From IMG/VR virus record IMGVR_UViG_3300042504_000087, positions 1 to 28,940 of that record: a stretch of 28,940 nucleotides of DNA, one strand, 5' to 3'. Position numbers and translations under genes: made by a program. This document shows positions 4,553-21,025 of this stretch, piece by piece (within the stretch, counting starts at the first letter, position 1; each line of letters opens with the position of its first letter). This DNA is from a virus. The notes below the pieces were generated by a model, which saw only the letters and a program-made list of their open reading frames with translations, was not told the origin of the DNA and did no database searches.

Positions 4553-5959
4553 TTATGCAACCCGCACAAGGTTTCTGCGCAGGGGCTGAGACCACTTTCC
4601 TGATCCACTTGACCCGTACATCCCTGCAATCGCGTCAGACGCAAATGTCAGGACAAAGGCATCGGCCTTGTCAGGGCTTGGCAGGCCTCTGCGCTTTATC
4701 TCATCTTTCCCCTCGATGGCGATCTTGCCGTTGCTGGTAAATGAGTACCGCACTGTGGCCAGTTCGGCAATCAAGACCTCATCCTTTGGCATCTTGCAAT
4801 CTCTGGCCTCAAGCCACGCCCGTGCTTTGTACCAAAGTTCTGCCTTCAGATTCCTGTACGTTCCACCCATCGCGGGTGATTCACTTACATTGATCCCTCT
4901 GGCCGGCAGGCCCAGCTCTCTGAGCCGGTCCACCACCCCAGCGCCTAATCCAATCGAATCCACCAGTATTTCCTTTGGCTGCTGGCTCGGTGGCAGCGCC
5001 TGGTACTCGGCCACCACCGCACCAGTCAATTGCATCAGGTCCAGATTTTTCCATGTCCGAATAGCCTCAGTCACCGCATTGCCCTGGCGCTTGCACAGCG
5101 CTGATCTGTCCGAGCCAAACCGCGCCACATCCAAGCCCCATAGCATGGGCGCATAGTCACTTGGCGCGACATCCCGATTCACCGCACTCTCCAGTAGGTC
5201 CATGGCAATGACAGTGTCGTCATCCCCCTTGGGAAACTCCCCGATCACCCTGATCCGGTAGACGTTGCTTTCCTCGCCATAGCGCATGGCCATCTCTTTG
5301 ACGTACTCATCACTCACCCTTGGCGAGTCAGTGCAGGCCACTTGAAATGTGGTCCACTCATCGGCCAGGCGCGTGTGGGTGTCATAGAAAAACCCACTAG
5401 ACCTCACCGGATTCCCCAAAAGCAGCGTCACCGCGTTGTGGCCAGACATCGAGCCAGCCGCGGCCTCAAACACTTGCTCCGGCACACCAGAAGCCTCATC
5501 GGCCACCAGCATCACATTCTCCGAGTGAATCCCCTGCAAAGCCTCTGGCTGCTCTGCTCTTGATGTCCTGGCTGAAATAAACATCTCAGTCGGTGCAGCA
5601 TTGAATTCAATCCTTTCCTGCTTGACAGTCAACAACCCCTGCAAAGGCAAAGGCATCGCATTGATCCACCTCTTCAGCTCGGCAAACATTGCGTCATACA
5701 GCTGTGAGCTTGTCGGTGCAGTCACCACCACCTTGACGGGAGACCGCGTCATAAAGTACCAGAGCATGGCCCAGCTGCTTGCCGTACTCTTTCCCACCCC
5801 GTGGCCAGACCTGACACTAATCTTCCGATCACCACGGGCAATCGCCCCAAGAAACTTCACCTGCCACGGGTCAGGGTCAACCCCCAAAACCTCCCGCACA
5901 AACAGCACAGGGTCCGGCTGATACCTCTCTACCCACTGACTGAAAACATTTTCTTTCAT
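4553..5959 (-). CDS. terL: Terminase large subunit (ATPase and nuclease)
   Basis: The protein has 468 residues, a typical TerL length. The ATPase has Walker A SGHGVGKST at 51-59, the adenine/coupling segment VVVTAPTSSQ at 77-86, and Walker B VMLVADEAS at 149-157 with catalytic E155. The RNase H-like nuclease has acidic residues in GLDVARFGSDRSA (D277), ILVDSIGLG (D334) and PSPDKADAF (D430/D433). The enzyme cuts concatemeric DNA and drives it into the prohead through the portal. The start overlaps the preceding small gene by ATGA. It is separated from the small subunit by about 1 kb of small genes and spacer. Headful versus cos packaging cannot be decided from sequence alone. Confidence 0.95.
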   Translation of the reverse strand: MKENVFSQWVERYQPDPVLFVREVLGVDPDPWQVKFLGAIARGDRKISVRSGHGVGKSTASSWAMLWYFMTRSPVKVVVTAPTSSQLYDAMFAELKRWINAMPLPLQGLLTVKQERIEFNAAPTEMFISARTSRAEQPEALQGIHSENVMLVADEASGVPEQVFEAAAGSMSGHNAVTLLLGNPVRSSGFFYDTHTRLADEWTTFQVACTDSPRVSDEYVKEMAMRYGEESNVYRIRVIGEFPKGDDDTVIAMDLLESAVNRDVAPSDYAPMLWGLDVARFGSDRSALCKRQGNAVTEAIRTWKNLDLMQLTGAVVAEYQALPPSQQPKEILVDSIGLGAGVVDRLRELGLPARGINVSESPAMGGTYRNLKAELWYKARAWLEARDCKMPKDEVLIAELATVRYSFTSNGKIAIEGKDEIKRRGLPSPDKADAFVLTFASDAIAGMYGSSGSGKWSQPLRRNLVRVA

Positions 5960-6356: not shown

Positions 6357-6514
6357 TGTATTTTCTGCACTTTATTATCAGGGTGAATTAACCACTTATC
6401 ACCCAATATTCTTAATGCCTTAATATATTGCAATTGATTATGTCTGTTCGTGCTATTAGGCACATAATCGACACAGAATAACTTCCTGACTTTAGTTAAT
6501 AACGTGATATTCAT
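6353..6514 (-). CDS. Very small hypothetical protein (53 aa)
   Basis: A 53-codon gene read from the ATG at 6514 to the TGA at 6353. The start overlaps the stop of the upstream 54-aa gene as ATGA, and the stop overlaps the GTG start of the zinc protein as GTGA; such exact junctions on both sides are hard to explain by chance. The protein starts MNITLLTKVRKLFCVDYVPN, is basic, and ends in WLIHPDNKVQKIQ; I do not recognise it. It uses many TTA, ATA and AAT codons and is clearly more AT-rich than the head and replication genes, which suggests a later acquisition. Confidence 0.65.
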   Translation of the reverse strand: MNITLLTKVRKLFCVDYVPNSTNRHNQLQYIKALRILGDKWLIHPDNKVQKIQ

Positions 6515-6675
6515 ATTATCCCCACGATCTGGTTAATGTCCACCCAAGTGTGCCAGACAATTGTCCCATCCAAGCTCATTAGCTTGCAGAACACTTTCTT
6601 GTCTTGAGCCTCATCAGTGTCTAACACAATCCACTCCTGGTCTTTGATGATGATTGTTGCCTGCTTCGTTTTCAT
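6511..6675 (-). CDS. Very small hypothetical protein (54 aa)
   Basis: A 54-codon gene from the ATG at 6675, preceded by GGAG with a 7-base spacer, a very good ribosome site and the first of the coupled chain that leads into TerL. The protein begins MKTKQATIIIKDQEWIVLDT and later has GTIVWHTWVDINQIVGII. Its alternating short strands suggest a small beta-barrel or SH3-like fold. No family is recognised. Its stop overlaps the next start by ATGA. Placement after a spacer of about 310 bases suggests that a promoter for this block may lie upstream. Confidence 0.75.
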   Translation of the reverse strand: MKTKQATIIIKDQEWIVLDTDEAQDKKVFCKLMSLDGTIVWHTWVDINQIVGII

Positions 6676-6738
6676 GGTTTAGCTCCGTTGTTTGTGGAGT
6701 TGACATTTTTGCACAATTTGACTTAGTTGTTACTTTTT

Positions 6739-6885
6739 TTAAAAATTTTTTTTGTAGGTGTTTAGTGCCGCCACAGTCGCCCCCGCCAAAGCGGCCACGG
6801 GGGGGTCACGGCCACCGACCGCCAGCTGGCCACTACCGACTTGTCCCCAGATTTTGGCCAACTTTATCCACAGATTCCTGTGCAT
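6739..6885 (-). CDS. Possible small protein (48 aa), uncertain
   Basis: A 48-codon open frame within the spacer, starting MHRNLWIKLAKIWGQVGSGQ, continuing LAVGGRDPPVAALAGATVAA and ending LNTYKKNF. The composition (Ala, Gly, Val with GC-rich third positions) looks protein-like, and the C-terminal half could be a weak membrane or packing helix. Against it, there is no ribosome site before the ATG at 6885, and the start codon lies inside a DnaA-box-like cluster. It may be coding or it may be a by-product of a GC-rich structural region. Confidence 0.3.
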   Translation of the reverse strand: MHRNLWIKLAKIWGQVGSGQLAVGGRDPPVAALAGATVAALNTYKKNF

Positions 6886-6941
6886 AAGTAGGCTTGTAAT
6901 ACTTTGATGCACTTAATTCTGTGGATAACGACTTATCCACT
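6864..6941. promoter_or_regulatory. Cluster of four DnaA-box-like 9-mers
   Basis: Two exact matches to TTATCCACA are seen: 6864-6872 on the plus strand and 6920-6928 as its complement TGTGGATAA. Two near matches accompany them: TGTGCATAA at 6879-6887 and TTATCCACT at 6933-6941. DnaA of most bacteria recognises TTATNCACA. Four in 78 bases is well above chance, where one exact 9-mer match is expected about once per 130 kb per strand. They may recruit host DnaA to a phage origin or control transcription of the block beginning at 6675. Which of these applies is inference. Confidence 0.55.
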
Positions 6942-6988
6942 TAACATAATGGTCGTTGTATAAAGTGACTGAATGCTTCGGTATTCAT

Positions 6989-7507: not shown

Positions 7508-7868
7508 TCAGATATTCCTCAATTGTTTTGATTGCTTCGGCAGCTGATCTGGCGACCACTGCTCGATACCCTTTTGCATTTAACTGCAAACCTACAGCGC
7601 TTTGCTTGGTTGAAACCACACCGGCCTTGGTCTTCATTTCCACAAATAACGCATGAAAGCCGTTTTTAGGCTCCAAGACGCAAAGGTCAGGCATCCCTGC
7701 CAATACCCCTTCAGAATGCAATCTGACGCGCTCTGAGGCCGTTCTGTCGCCTCCGTTGGGTATTGCTGCAATGATGATGTCTGGATAGAACGCTCGAAAG
7801 TGTTGGACCACTTTGACCTGGTCAATGTGTTCAATGCTTTTTCTTTTGCGTTTTAAGTCAACCACCAT
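7500..7868 (-). CDS. VRR-NUC domain nuclease
   Basis: The protein has 122 residues from the ATG at 7868; an in-frame ATG at 7913 would add 15 residues and lengthen the overlap with the upstream gene from 16 to 61 bases. The VRR-NUC core of the PD-(D/E)XK superfamily is visible: AAIPNGG near 34-40, GVLAGMPDLCVL with D61, then LFVEMKTKAG with E77 and K79, and a Gln (TKQ, 89) on the next helix. In phages this fold is a stand-alone endonuclease, often acting on branched DNA (junction resolvase-like). It is placed between a zinc protein and TerS, so it probably clears branches before packaging. Confidence 0.88.
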   Translation of the reverse strand: MVVDLKRKRKSIEHIDQVKVVQHFRAFYPDIIIAAIPNGGDRTASERVRLHSEGVLAGMPDLCVLEPKNGFHALFVEMKTKAGVVSTKQSAVGLQLNAKGYRAVVARSAAEAIKTIEEYLNG

Positions 7869-8173
7869 TCTTCGGATTTTACAGCCGAGGGTTTGGTCTG
7901 GAATAGGTGGCATCGGTGCTTAACGTCGGTCGGGAATGCAGCCAGTCCAGTTTGGCTGCACTGATGTTCGGACCATGTGACTGTTGCCCATCCACCTTTG
8001 ACCTTTGCTTGGTCAAACATCCACTGCAATGGTTTGGCGTTAACCTTTCGGTGTCTTTCCATCTGCTCTGATGGCATCGACTGGCGCTGCTCGACCATTT
8101 CCGCATTAGCGCATTGATGGCAGAAAACGCGCTCATCTTCGATGAAATCTAAATTTGTGGATAACCTGTGCAT
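7853..8173 (-). CDS. Small Cys-containing hypothetical protein (106 aa)
   Basis: The protein has 106 residues. The start at 8173 has AAGGA five bases upstream, a strong ribosome site. Cysteines at the CHQC motif (18, 21) and two later ones (near 72 and 87) could bind one zinc; the middle is basic and the end Trp-rich (EEWWLT). The first codons coincide with two DnaA-box-like sites, and codons 21-25 contain a copy of the TTCCGCATTAG motif. A competing frame at 7879-8136 lacks the ribosome site. Not recognised; its position beside VRR-NUC suggests DNA metabolism, which is inference. Confidence 0.72.
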   Translation of the reverse strand: MHRLSTNLDFIEDERVFCHQCANAEMVEQRQSMPSEQMERHRKVNAKPLQWMFDQAKVKGGWATVTWSEHQCSQTGLAAFPTDVKHRCHLFQTKPSAVKSEEWWLT

Positions 8174-8175
8174 AA
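8156..8175. promoter_or_regulatory. Pair of DnaA-box-like 9-mers at the start of the zinc-protein gene
   Basis: TGTGGATAA (exact complement of TTATCCACA) lies at 8156-8164 and TGTGCATAA at 8167-8175, spanning the start codon of the gene that begins at 8173. The same combination of an exact box and the TGTGCATAA variant occurs in the 6864-6941 cluster. A further exact box is at 8287-8295. They could be origin elements or sites for host DnaA-linked regulation. Confidence 0.45.
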
Positions 8176-8205
8176 CTTTCCTTTGTGTTGGACCATCAAA
8201 TGCTC

Positions 8206-8258
8206 GTTTCTAATACGGAAAGCCCTTAAGGAATTTTCCGCCTTTCCGCATTAGAAAC
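8206..8258. repeat. Long inverted repeat IR1 (17-bp arms)
   Basis: The left arm 8206-8222 (GTTTCTAATACGGAAAG) and the right arm 8242-8258 (CTTTCCGCATTAGAAAC) are inverted with one mismatch. In minus-strand RNA, the direction of the genes, that mismatch becomes a G-U pair, so the RNA stem would be fully paired over 17 positions with a 19-base loop. The loop itself has a palindrome (CCTTAAGG). No T-run follows in either direction, so it is not a standard intrinsic terminator. Confidence 0.8.
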
Positions 8259-8288
8259 TGAAGTACCTTCCAAGCCGAGACTGGTCTG

Positions 8289-8321
8289 TGGATAAGTGGG
8301 TCTAATGACCCCACTTATCCA
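8289..8321. repeat. Perfect 12-bp inverted repeat with 9-base loop
   Basis: Arms 8289-8300 (TGGATAAGTGGG) and 8310-8321 (CCCACTTATCCA) are exact inverted copies around TCTAATGAC. The left arm overlaps a DnaA-box-like TGTGGATAA (8287-8295). No U-tract follows on the minus-strand transcript, so a terminator role is doubtful; a cruciform or protein-binding role near an origin is as likely. Confidence 0.75.
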
Positions 8322-8336
8322 ACAATCCCTGCCATT

Positions 8337-8392
8337 GTCTAATACGGAATTCCGCATTAGTTCCGTATTAGTTCCGCCTTTCCGCATTAGAC
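8337..8392. repeat. Inverted repeat IR2 with nested 11-base motifs
   Basis: The left arm 8337-8349 (GTCTAATACGGAA) and the right arm 8380-8392 (TTCCGCATTAGAC) are inverted with the same single mismatch as IR1. Between them, motif copies at 8350-8360 and 8361-8371 can pair with the left arm too; the 8361 copy pairs with it perfectly. Three mutually exclusive hairpins are therefore possible. The end of IR2 is three bases from the stop codon of the PrimPol-helicase gene at 8396. Confidence 0.8.
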
Positions 8393-8395
8393 TGG

Positions 8396-10525
8396 TCACA
8401 TCAACCTCACCCAGCCAGACAATGGCTCGTTTGGTGCGAATCTGGTGAAGATGGCCGTGCCAATATGCTTGCGGATATAGCCTGCATCTGAGCCTTTTAC
8501 AGTTGAGAAGATTTCAGTCCAATCCAGTTGATAGGCGTTTTGAAGTTCTTTTGGCACAACTGGCCTGCCTGGTCCTCTTCGCATAATGACGCTGCCTTTG
8601 TCATTGATGATGGCTTGGACATGGTTGCAGACCTCATCGCACTTGTCTTGGATGCGCTGCTCTTTGGCGGTGTCTTGCTGGGACTGCTTGGCGGCCATCC
8701 GGTCTTGTTCTGACGACATGGCTGGAATAGCCACCCTGCAAATAATCTCTTGCAGATCACCAGCTGGGGTGATAACTATTTCTGGGAATGTGATGCTGTC
8801 AAACTTGATCTCTCTGAACTGAGGCTCATAGCGCGTCTTTGTGAGTTTTAGGTAGCGCTGGTTATCCTCATCCATGAAAAGCACGCCAGTCAGGGTTGCA
8901 TCGCCTGTGAATGCTGATGCACCACGGGCCATGGCATCGGAGTCTTGTCGACTAATAGTTTTGTTGGTATGGGTCAGGATGCAGACTGGCGCTTTTTGTT
9001 GAATGAAGATGGTCTGCTTGATGGCGGCAATGTAGGCTCCAACTTCAGAGTTGTCATTCTCGTTGTCAATGTCCATAGTCGCATTGGCCGTGTCTAGGAC
9101 TAATAATGGCTTAATGCCATTAACTGTATGGCGCTCAATATTATGTGCAAGTCTGAGTAAATCCTTGACATTAGACCTTCTGGCATCAATAACCACAAAC
9201 CAGTCATTTAGATTATTTATCTTGTAATGCTTTGAATATGCGAATAATGTTCGGATTATCTGGTCACTATCTTCAGTCACGATGATTGACTTGCGTTTTT
9301 TCTTTGCGTGAATCTCGCAGCCATCAACTTTAAACCCTGCCATGACCATGCACATGGACAGCACTGCTGTGGTCTTTCCCACGCCAGGCTGACCGGCCAA
9401 GATGAAAAAGCTATGGGCCATGAAACCTTCGATCAGGTAATCGATGGGGTTGAGGTGGGTCAGGTCTAGCGTCAGTTCTGGCCATGATGGGTCTGGTGCG
9501 TCTTCTATGACTGGCGCATTGATCACCGCGGCAAAGTCTTCCACCGCTGATTTGCGCTCGGCCTGCTTAGTTGGAGCTTCCCACCCACAGTCTTTGGCGT
9601 GCTTGAACAGTGTGCCAATGCCAACACCTTTGCCCTGGTGAAAGCTCTTCCAGTGGACTTCAATGTCTTTTGTGCCTGCAAACTTGTTGCCGGCCATGGA
9701 CCATGTCATCCATGGGCCTAATCCCGCCTCTCCAAATTCTGTGTGCAGCGCTTGGCCCAGTTCAATCCACTGGTCATAGTCACAGTCTGGGGAAATATGG
9801 TGCAAAGCCTTGATGGCACGATCAAGATCGCTGTCATCCAGCCTTGACCCTAATTGGGTGAAGTCAAATGACTGTGAGGGTGGTGCAGGCTTTGGCTCTT
9901 GCAACTGGTGCTGCTCGATGATCCCCCACTCTTGGAGCAAGGCATAAAGATCGATTGCCTCTTGGAATTCACCGACCACAGCATTGCCACTGAGTAGGAC
10001 TGACTTGCCTGCACTGTTTGGCAGGCCAAAGACTTCAAGCTCTTGGCCACCGCCCAGCTTGTACTTCGGCAGCACCAGGTCAGATTCTTTGGGTGGTTGG
10101 ACCCATAAGAAAACATGACGGCCACGGCCTGAGACAGAAACCTCGGTCAGCATCTGCTTTTGTTTCACATACTTGGCCATGCGCTGGATGGCCACGTTGG
10201 TGGGGCCACTAGCGTGCTTCATGTCCACATCAAGGCAAACCAAATAGTTTCCTGATGCGCTGATGATAGGGCGCTGCTGGACTAGGCCAAGATATTGGCC
10301 ATGAGGCGCTTGCTCCATGGTCCAGACATCTTCAGCGTTGTAGAGATCGCTTGGGTCTGTATCCCGTGCCACACCTTGGCCAGATCGCTTGTAAGGGATT
10401 TTCTTGGAGCCTTGCAAGGCAAAGGTGCAGAACACCGCATCGGGGGCCACAGCGCCTATTTTGCAGGCGACAGACTGGGACTGGCTGAATGTATCTGGCA
10501 GGGGTGTTTCAGTTATAGTTGACAC
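8396..10525 (-). CDS. Primase-polymerase/helicase fusion (PrimPol, PriCT, RepA-like ATPase)
   Basis: The protein has 709 residues from a GTG at 10525 that has AAAGGA six bases before it. An ATG nine codons upstream at 10552 has no ribosome site, and its codons encode that AAAGGA. The N-terminal PrimPol domain has catalytic Asp residues in CLDVDMKH (D99, D101), the nucleotide-contact motif SGRGRHVF (132-139) and QELEVFG (161-167). A PriCT-like helical domain is at about 234-315. The ATPase has Walker A GQPGVGKTT at 378-386 and a Walker B-like LLVLDTANA. It makes primers and unwinds the fork in one protein. Its start lies 111 bases after the stop of the Cas4-like nuclease gene. No DNA polymerase is seen nearby, so the host's is probably used. 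Confidence 0.92.
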   Translation of the reverse strand: MSTITETPLPDTFSQSQSVACKIGAVAPDAVFCTFALQGSKKIPYKRSGQGVARDTDPSDLYNAEDVWTMEQAPHGQYLGLVQQRPIISASGNYLVCLDVDMKHASGPTNVAIQRMAKYVKQKQMLTEVSVSGRGRHVFLWVQPPKESDLVLPKYKLGGGQELEVFGLPNSAGKSVLLSGNAVVGEFQEAIDLYALLQEWGIIEQHQLQEPKPAPPSQSFDFTQLGSRLDDSDLDRAIKALHHISPDCDYDQWIELGQALHTEFGEAGLGPWMTWSMAGNKFAGTKDIEVHWKSFHQGKGVGIGTLFKHAKDCGWEAPTKQAERKSAVEDFAAVINAPVIEDAPDPSWPELTLDLTHLNPIDYLIEGFMAHSFFILAGQPGVGKTTAVLSMCMVMAGFKVDGCEIHAKKKRKSIIVTEDSDQIIRTLFAYSKHYKINNLNDWFVVIDARRSNVKDLLRLAHNIERHTVNGIKPLLVLDTANATMDIDNENDNSEVGAYIAAIKQTIFIQQKAPVCILTHTNKTISRQDSDAMARGASAFTGDATLTGVLFMDEDNQRYLKLTKTRYEPQFREIKFDSITFPEIVITPAGDLQEIICRVAIPAMSSEQDRMAAKQSQQDTAKEQRIQDKCDEVCNHVQAIINDKGSVIMRRGPGRPVVPKELQNAYQLDWTEIFSTVKGSDAGYIRKHIGTAIFTRFAPNEPLSGWVRLM

Positions 10526-19891: not shown

Positions 19892-21025
19892 TTATCCGAG
19901 TAAAGATTTCATTTTCTTGGCAGGCACTTTGCCTTCGTTGATCATGTCCAAAAGTCCACGGCCATACTTGTTGACTGAAGACTTCTTGATCACATATTCG
20001 CCAAGATCAAGATTGACAGCGCCATCATCTGGACCAGGAGGGTTTGCACCAAACATCACGCCACCATGGACCATGCCACCTTGAGCCATGCCTGTTGATT
20101 CTTGCTGAGTGTTTTGCGCTGCCGTTGCCGCTGCCTGCTCTGCCGTTGTATTGGCCAAATTAGCAGCTGCGATCTGGTCATACAGACCAGGGTTATAGCC
20201 ACCCATTGCTTGGCCTGCCACCACATTGGCGTATGGATTGCCAACTGGTCGCATCTGGCCCATGACTTGGGCGTATGGAGAACCAGCGCCACCGACCACA
20301 TTGGGGTTGTATTGAGCGCCAATTGGGATTGACTGGTAATTAGCAAAGTTCTGGGCAAAGCCTTGGGTGGCATTGGCAAATGGAGTTGTGCCAGTGATGC
20401 CCATGTTGCCAGTTGGGCCAAGCAAGCCGCCAGTGCCACCAGTCACGCCACCAGTGCCACCAGTCACGCCACCAGTGCCACCAGTCACACCACCAGTCAC
20501 GTTAGTGCCAGTTCCTGTGCCACCAGTCTTTTGCAGTGCAGCCAAACGCGCTAATTCAGCCAAACGGGCTGCTTCAGCATTGCGTTGCTGCAAAAGTAAA
20601 GCCGCTTCATTTTGTCTGCGGACCAAATCAAGCTGGGCCGCATTAGCAGCTGCCAATTGAGCCGCAGTCAAAGTGCCAGCAGAAGTTCTAGCCTCTAAAT
20701 TTCTAGCATCAATCAATGCTTGGCTGGCAGTTTTGTCTCTGGCTGTACGCGCTGCAAGTTCTGCATCAGCCGCGGCATTGGCAATCAATTCTGCTTCAGT
20801 TGTTGGCACTGCCGTCGTGTATTGAGACGCGACACTTTGAGTGGTCACACCAGTAGCACGGGCCACATCGGCTGGAGAAATGCCAAGTCGGTCCATTTCT
20901 ATGCGCAACATGGCATTGCTAGTGCCTTTTTGCTGCGCATCAAGCACAGCATTAAAAATGTTTCGGTCAAATTCGGCCTGCGTCATGCCGTTGGCCAATG
21001 CCCAATTGAGTGCTTCTGATGCCAT
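19892..21025 (-). CDS. Ala/Gly-rich structural or ejection protein with repeats (377 aa)
   Basis: The protein has 377 residues. An N-terminal helical domain (1-75) is followed by a long Ala/Gln/Leu/Arg coiled stretch (80-165), then a GGVTGGT repeat tract (about 171-200), a Gly/Tyr/Asn-rich segment and a conserved-looking end: PDDGAVNLDLGEYVIKK, then VNKYGRGLLDMINEG. That end is a signature I know from many phage virion proteins of unknown role. The AGGGGAA ribosome site precedes the ATG. The repeat tract is encoded by a 21-base tandem DNA repeat and may vary in length between relatives. Confidence 0.74.
   Translation of the reverse strand: MASEALNWALANGMTQAEFDRNIFNAVLDAQQKGTSNAMLRIEMDRLGISPADVARATGVTTQSVASQYTTAVPTTEAELIANAAADAELAARTARDKTASQALIDARNLEARTSAGTLTAAQLAAANAAQLDLVRRQNEAALLLQQRNAEAARLAELARLAALQKTGGTGTGTNVTGGVTGGTGGVTGGTGGVTGGTGGLLGPTGNMGITGTTPFANATQGFAQNFANYQSIPIGAQYNPNVVGGAGSPYAQVMGQMRPVGNPYANVVAGQAMGGYNPGLYDQIAAANLANTTAEQAAATAAQNTQQESTGMAQGGMVHGGVMFGANPPGPDDGAVNLDLGEYVIKKSSVNKYGRGLLDMINEGKVPAKKMKSLLG
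20431..20500. repeat. Tandem 21-base repeat (three full copies)
   Basis: CAGTGCCACCAGTCACGCCAC is present at 20431-20451, repeated exactly at 20452-20472, then with one change at 20473-20493 and a partial copy after. On the minus strand it encodes the seven-residue unit GGVTGGT. Such tracts can expand or contract by slippage and so change the linker length of the protein. Confidence 0.9.

Follow-up and report, generated by a model that had tools for sequence, protein, structure and literature searches.

An array of 11-bp repeats lies directly downstream of the gene for a primase-polymerase fused to a helicase (PrimPol-helicase, hereafter PrimPol) in the 28,940-bp viral DNA of IMG/VR record IMGVR_UViG_3300042504_000087 (positions 1 to 28,940; the window, i.e., the whole stretch analysed). 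With a probability of roughly 85%, judged from sequence comparison, this array is the core of a phage replication origin whose repeats (iterons) are bound by the C-terminal domain of PrimPol. This reading is favoured because the array occurs at one place directly after an initiator-like gene, because its layout is kept among relatives while the motif is replaced in concert, and because the motif type follows the PrimPol C-terminus alone among 11 proteins compared. The first-pass annotation of the sequence had likened the repeats to plasmid iterons, and the evidence favours this likeness, although the element belongs to a phage. With relatives reaching 36-38 kb, the window itself probably does not cover a complete genome.

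Putative iteron array downstream of the PrimPol gene

Exact-match searching for TTCCGYATTAG recovered seven copies within 292 bp, all where the first-pass annotation had placed them, namely TTCCGCATTAG at 8099, 8244, 8350 and 8380, TTCCGTATTAG at 8361, and reverse-strand copies at 8210 and 8339. Base composition predicts approximately 0.027 copies in the window; no further exact copies were found in the 28,940-bp record, and a control with the motif letters read backwards gave 0 matches. When up to two mismatches were allowed, 15 matches were obtained versus a shuffle mean of 8.95, and 4 of 100 shuffles reached 15; as this excess is weak, the signal resides in the exact copies. The gap separating PrimPol from the next open reading frame (ORF) holds six of them, the seventh is inside that ORF, and the copies at 8350 and 8361 abut at an 11-bp step, all as previously described. 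In addition, the copy at 8339 adjoins that at 8350 head to head, and 8-base part copies occur at 8236-8243 and 8372-8379. Read from the PrimPol stop codon, the array begins with direct repeats and an adjoining copy in inverted orientation, continues with two stem-loops, the first holding a DnaA box and the second two opposed copies, and ends with two further DnaA boxes and a copy within the next ORF (Table 1). Near-identical short repeats, partly at one-turn spacing, beside an initiator-like gene and unique in the replicon, are the arrangement expected of an iteron origin.

Concerted replacement of the motif among relatives

Relatives of PrimPol were collected from IMG/VR in one scan (best 80 of 125 loci used) and two further scans (best 80 of 153 and best 80 of 118 confirmed relatives). 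Motif types were assigned at the 76 of the first 80 loci with sufficient DNA past the gene, four being dropped: 33 loci carried type A (CTAATRCGGAA, i.e., the window motif on the other strand), nine type B (GTAATGCGGTA) and 34 type C (mostly GTAAACCGGTA or GTAAAGCGGTA). All three types occupy the same region with the same layout and 6-9 copies each, and the dispersed copies change together from type to type; at the array start, types B and C have two overlapping full repeats 8 bp apart instead of the part copy.

The motif was confined to one place in 11/11 type A contigs of at least 32 kb, and the spread through the genome that would have spoken against a dedicated array was not seen. The first-pass annotation had also named absence from close relatives keeping both flanking genes as grounds for rejection, and, taken literally, that absence was found: apart from one copy in locus L034, TTCCGYATTAG is missing from type B and C relatives with both genes. 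It does not refute the array, however, as these relatives have the corresponding positions filled by another repeat, all copies having changed together. On sequence comparison, such concerted replacement speaks for iterons more strongly than mere conservation would.

A tandem of two TTCCGYATTAG motifs was detected in 35 viral contigs, five of them already among the loci and 30 new; PrimPol is encoded by 29 of the new contigs, and also by the L013 contig, to which the remaining one (L104) belongs. Furthermore, in clade D (approximately 52% PrimPol identity; MW202879.1 and IMG/VR loci) the motif is replaced by TCGRRGATACC within the same layout of post-stop array, inverted copy, DnaA-box stem-loop, opposed pair and DnaA box, and in most of these loci the next ORF also contains a copy, spaced 145 bp from the forward copy of the hairpin just as in type A. 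With up to one mismatch, the clade D motif occurred 0 or 1 time in the rest of each of 32 loci (32 of 34 counted, two being too short; L147 and L150, of 35, were excluded because their matches stop before the C-terminus). MW202879.1 was the only one of 29 matching known-phage records with at least 80% query coverage. No DNA-level match to window positions 8000-8500 was found in the phage collection, and plasmids gave fragment matches only, spanning at most 27% of the PrimPol protein.

Some relatives depart from these patterns. In L139 and L146 (clade D) the repeats have drifted further, to TCGGGTGGCC units, and L139 is without the distal perfect DnaA box and the usual form of the opposed pair. 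The single relative from one scan of genome contigs, L187, lies in a metagenome-assembled Acidimicrobium bin and has a PrimPol of 50-61% identity and a variant array. It is probably a phage contig within that bin, since a 99% identical virus contig (L188) exists, and Acidimicrobium was accordingly dropped as a host.

Association of motif type with the PrimPol C-terminus

PrimPol was aligned for 75 of the 80 loci (L078, without its N-terminus, was left out), and columns discriminating types A, B and C with at least 85% agreement within each type were taken as diagnostic. All 30 diagnostic columns of PrimPol fell at amino acids (aa) 619-717. None was present in ten other phage proteins encoded in the flanks of the array (44 to 74 loci each), i.e., the SNF2 helicase, PD-(D/E)XK nuclease, ORF106, VRR-NUC, small terminase (TerS), large terminase (TerL), SSB, XRE and two small ORFs; a GIY-like protein with only three matches was left out. 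The fewest type changes required on trees were two for the PrimPol C-terminus (the minimum for three types), six for its helicase and 19 for its N-terminus, compared with seven for ORF106 and 13-23 for seven other phage proteins, including 19 for XRE and 14 for TerS. All ten proteins were rejected as readers of the repeats, being without diagnostic columns, and the eight with trees required 7 to 23 changes. Repeats that change with one domain of the initiator are a further property of iteron origins.

Recombinants separate the domains of PrimPol. Eight type B loci have either an A-like (L032, L033, L034, L036) or a C-like helicase (L046, L055, L056, L073), and in all of them the C-terminus and the repeats are of type B, apart from the copy in ORF106 of L034, which is type A. 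In L067, the N-terminal half is divergent while helicase, C-terminus and repeats are of type A; its sequence suggests recombination, the breakpoint lying near aa 340-360.

In a DNA alignment of 72 of the 80 loci, the types were discriminated by 126 of 578 columns from -300 to +239 relative to the gene end versus 0 of 770 outside, which delimits a putative exchangeable specificity cassette of approximately 540 bp. It starts near the beginning of the long helix in the C-terminal model (aa 615), ends near the start of the 106-aa ORF, and contains the C-terminal domain, the iteron array, the DnaA-box stem-loop and the iteron hairpin.

DnaA boxes and stem-loops

Perfect TTATNCACA sites occur six times in the window, three at the array and three at 6864-6928. 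Among the 75 type A-C loci, 221 perfect DnaA boxes were counted in 24,750 bp after PrimPol versus 144 in 753,123 bp elsewhere, 142 of which belong to one second cluster; the 32 clade D loci, which are without the second cluster, had 81 in 10,560 bp versus 1 in 247,423 bp. At least two boxes were present in the putative origin of 75/75 type A-C and 31/32 clade D loci. DnaA boxes are found in many, though not all, iteron-type origins, and the array shares this feature.

The DnaA-box stem has substitutions on both arms in relatives with pairing mostly kept (e.g., AAGTGGG/CCCACTT, AAATGGG/CCCATTT and AAGTAGG/CCTACTT), and some stems, such as that of L024, are mismatched. Moreover, the array region folds as single-stranded DNA far better than shuffled sequences (z -8.1). 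A large stem-loop past the replication gene is a feature of pRN1-type replicons, and this strong folding, with its several stem-loops, corresponds to it.

The second DnaA cluster of the window (6864-6941), with three perfect boxes, one box with one mismatch and a 22-nt inverted repeat, sits beyond the small terminase gene, and most A, B and C relatives reaching that far have boxes similarly placed, mostly +1434 to +1534 past the end of PrimPol. It is possibly a DnaA-titration or regulatory site. It adjoins a gene-free region of approximately 560 bp (6424-6988) that separates the small terminase from the small minus-strand ORF next to it, and in which the sole ORF is a mechanical one on the plus strand (6654-6887).

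Architecture of PrimPol

The gene product is a PrimPol-helicase by predicted fold and family. It contains PriCT_2 (aa 247-319, E 3e-18) and AAA_25 (aa 365-532) domains, with a sub-threshold DnaB_C match and neither a DUF927 nor a D5 domain in Pfam, and it matches phage primase families. Foldseek comparison of the full-length AlphaFold2 model with the pdb returned the N-terminal domain of the phage NrS-1 primase-polymerase (E ~1e-8) and RecA-fold proteins such as Rad51, DMC1 and KaiC (E from 2e-5).

The last 130 residues were modelled with a predicted local distance difference test score (pLDDT) of 88, in the order two short strands, long helix (from aa 615), strand, strand, helix, helix, strand. 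The strand-strand-helix-helix-strand order occurs in winged helices, and the C-terminal domain is winged-helix-like by this order of predicted elements. Profile searches against the sequences of solved structures yielded nothing with C-terminal or full-length profiles, and Pfam matches of the C-terminus of the window protein were below the cut-off. PPR matches, spanning approximately 37 residues and chance-like, and weak RFC and DnaB matches were discarded.

Residue-base matches

For comparison of residues with iteron bases, 12 loci (11 complete ones from outside the first 80, picked by eye, and L187) were added to the 75, giving 87, of which 86 could be used. Residue 661 of the GxGRP loop agreed with the majority base 5 of the iteron in every one (86/86): the 44 loci with base T have residue P or A, and the 42 loci with base A have residue S. 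This match persists in two loci that break the type background: L258 has P661 and mainly TAAT repeats (base 5 being a majority call, 8 of 11 copies) despite a helix sequence that is C-like, and L189 has S661 and TAAA repeats despite one that is B-like. Base 1 is separated by seven columns including 691, and base 10 by 15 including 690 and 697.

In clade D, two array sub-types (11 versus 23 loci) are split by column 707 (V versus I) in 34/34 loci, and this column aligns with residue 697 of the window protein; the only other column separating the sub-types is gap-ridden, with six letters. Since the hairpin copies in most of the 11 loci retain the other motif, specificity in that sub-type may be relaxed rather than switched.

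Weighing the origin reading against alternatives

Several results weigh against an origin read by the PrimPol C-terminus. The array touches the C-terminal coding region, so that physical linkage contributes to their association, and the FastTree trees from which the type changes were counted had no shuffled-label control. Columns 651 and 709 separate base 5 as well as 661 does, no column among the 86 loci separates base 6, and independent phylogenetic contrasts, agreeing in 3/3, 2/2 and 1/1 supported pairs, comprise fewer than six pairs and reach no significance, with most base labels taken from the A/B/C type rather than from each locus's own count. The full-length model is of moderate quality (pLDDT 71). 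The C-terminal model matched no solved structure at E ≤ 0.001 in Foldseek and had only weak VIA-align matches (Z 4.8 and below), whose best rows include the cullin C-terminus, MukE, DasR and ScpA, which we take to be winged-helix-bearing chains, as well as unrelated chains such as glutaredoxins. Finally, the first-pass annotation had proposed GC skew for mapping the origin, and this lent no support: the change of windowed skew to positive values near 8.5 kb is confounded by genes, and skew at four-fold sites follows the coding strand with no switch at the array (8.2 kb), for which reason it was dropped as origin evidence.

Given this adjacency, the C-terminus and the repeats might be inherited merely as one DNA block, with the repeats serving an unseen host factor or acting as RNA or DNA hairpins, as the strong single-strand fold and the DnaA-box stem predicted throughout would allow. 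Linkage alone is nevertheless quite improbable, as ORF106 requires at least five extra type changes and the helicase four compared with none for the C-terminus, dispersed copies change jointly, residue 661 follows base 5 through the type-mixing L258 and L189, and, leaving the gap-ridden column aside, one column divides the clade D sub-types completely.

It is similarly hard to sustain that the repeats are operators through which a phage repressor or activator, such as the XRE protein, controls the genes downstream of PrimPol. Inverted and direct operator-like repeats do occupy the gap before a gene, an XRE gene lies within the window, and autoregulation by the initiator would be compatible with an origin too. 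However, the tree and column results given above speak against XRE, which the first-pass annotation had offered as a possible binder, no sigma-70-like promoter or terminator pattern was found at 8000-8700, and DnaA boxes and a primase-helicase beside the array suit an origin better.

Less probable still are cos/pac sites for the small terminase, encoded approximately 0.6 kb downstream: some phages have repeated terminase sites, TerS (Sf6-type) and TerL genes are nearby, and a few short contigs (L099, L102, L105, L117) end within 0.2-0.7 kb of the array, but TerS has neither diagnostic columns nor a tree that fits the types (14 changes), and the array sits at 3.1 to 31.7 kb in 11 long contigs (32-37 kb), never terminally. 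RNA processing sites, another suggestion of the first-pass annotation, are unlikely because the repeats change in concert with a protein domain.

For the preferred reading, that of an iteron origin, we infer binding, melting, priming and origin activity as follows, the steps after binding by analogy with SaPI Rep, pRN1 and plasmid iteron systems. The winged-helix-like domain (aa ~615-718) would bind the direct array at one-turn spacing and thereby place PrimPol's own RecA-like helicase and NrS-1-like primase-polymerase at the site. Inverted copies and stem-loops may help to position helicase rings or expose single strands, host DnaA, on the conserved boxes within and next to the stem-loops, probably assists duplex opening or remodelling, and PrimPol would then prime on the exposed strand. 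Initiator domain and iterons would swap between phages as one cassette of approximately 540 bp, altering origin specificity while leaving replication unbroken.

Comparison with known systems

On comparison of domains and repeats, the element is a putative iteron origin of new make-up, outside the SaPI and pRN1 families because the helicase type differs. In satellite phage P4 a single protein, alpha, serves as primase, helicase and origin binder and is accompanied by iterons, but its helicase and primase types differ and the repeats are unrelated. The systems below are described from excerpts of the cited papers.

The nearest described arrangement is SaPI Rep and its ori (with SCCmec Cch2), in which the C-terminal domain of Rep recognises an iteron origin directly downstream of its own gene, SaPI5 Rep having primase and helicase domains in one chain (PMC7581432). 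The array position matches, and iteron recognition by the C-terminal domain would find support here in covariation. In contrast, the present element belongs to a phage rather than an island, its primase fold is NrS-1-like, its helicase is RecA-like rather than of the DUF927 or D5/Primase_Cterm type, and it has DnaA boxes, which the excerpt does not mention for SaPI ori.

The archaeal plasmid pRN1 is likewise a PrimPol-helicase replicon (ORF904) with an essential stem-loop just downstream of the replication gene, a winged-helix domain being invoked for it and similar stem-loops being proposed for some phages (PMC4234260). Its helicase is of superfamily 3 (SF3), whereas that of the window protein is RecA-like despite the N-terminus resembling archaeo-eukaryotic primases (AEP), and the excerpt describes its binding motifs as not yet identified and gives neither an iteron array nor DnaA boxes. 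Phage NrS-1, whose N-terminal PrimPol fold is shared, starts at an 8-nt template site suggested to be the phage origin (PMC7102993, PMC8718748). According to these excerpts its helicase is again SF3, and the 8-nt site is a priming template occurring twice in the genome, unlike the duplex repeat array tied to a separate C-terminal domain here.

At the level of domain composition, AEP/PrimQH fusions are similar, with AEP, PriCT, RecA-type (RepA/DnaB-type) helicase and winged-helix domains in one chain by bioinformatic prediction, no origin being given for them in the excerpt (PMC5862659). RSF1010 divides the three tasks among separate RepC, RepA and RepB' (PMC4234260), and PLE RepA with its iterons is a functional parallel (PMC7145576). 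Geminivirus iterons have fixed positions and diverse sequences matched to Rep, yet iteron sequence was reported to be non-essential for replication (PMC12548392), which by analogy is a caution for the present reading; as excerpted, these are single-stranded DNA plant viruses with 5-6-nt iterons upstream of Rep. No description of the putative origin reported here was found by title or abstract start in the open-licence PubMed Central literature.

Feature coordinates and other observations

Table 1. Features of the putative origin and its surroundings in the window.
Feature	Coordinates	Strand	Remarks
PrimPol-helicase, 718 aa	8396..10552	-	NrS-1-like primase-polymerase fold, PriCT_2, RecA-like helicase, C-terminal domain
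PrimPol C-terminal domain (aa 615-718)	8399..8710	-	Winged-helix-like by predicted-element order; holds the 30 type-diagnostic residues
Putative exchangeable specificity cassette, ~540 bp	8160..8699	-	Limits to nearest 30-bp bin
Iteron 1	8380..8390	-	CTAATGCGGAA on minus (coding) strand; exact match; array position in relatives
8-base part copy	8372..8379	-	AGGCGGAA; between iterons 1 and 2
Iteron 2	8361..8371	-	CTAATACGGAA
Iteron 3	8350..8360	-	CTAATGCGGAA; abuts iteron 2
Iteron 4	8339..8349	+	Inverted; abuts iteron 3 head to head
Stem-loop / inverted repeat	8289..8321	.	Overlaps proximal DnaA box; predicted in all listed relatives
DnaA box	8287..8295	-	TTATCCACA; similar offset in nearly all relatives
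Iteron hairpin	8206..8258	.	Iteron 5, part copy 8236-8243, inverted iteron 6; 17-nt arms
Iteron 5	8244..8254	-	CTAATGCGGAA
Iteron 6	8210..8220	+	Inverted; CTAATACGGAA on plus strand
DnaA box	8167..8175	-	TTATGCACA; perfect box
DnaA box	8156..8164	-	TTATCCACA; perfect box
Iteron 7	8099..8109	-	Inside 106-aa ORF; outside strictly type-diagnostic block
106-aa ORF (ORF106)	7853..8173	-	Contains iteron 7; 0 type-diagnostic columns

Elsewhere in the window, short tandem repeats with up to six copies of an 11-base family were observed at 20430-20480, within the gene at 19892-21025, where they encode a Gly/Thr/Val-rich stretch. In addition, the large terminase gene (4553-5959) has a four-fold-site GC skew of +0.32 on the coding strand; the sign is reversed in almost every other gene measured.

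Implications for the phage family

To our knowledge, most phages known only from metagenomes have unmapped origins, and here a probable origin and its probable reading domain could be named from sequence alone, suggesting a simple route to origins in this phage family. Primase, RecA-like helicase and candidate iteron reader are joined in one chain and occur together with host DnaA boxes, and the natural domain swaps yield specific predictions for gel-shift assays. It is conceivable, if somewhat doubtful, that a constant replication engine combined with a swapped cassette of reading domain and matching origin defines replication-compatibility groups, under a code in which residue 661 specifies base 5, residue 691 base 1, and residues ~690-697 base 10. 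The groups may then stay diverse because cross-recognition by satellites or co-infecting phages is selected against, or because host factors aimed at origins exert selection. With both cassette exchange and few-residue changes, this phage family offers a tractable case for the evolution of initiator-origin specificity.
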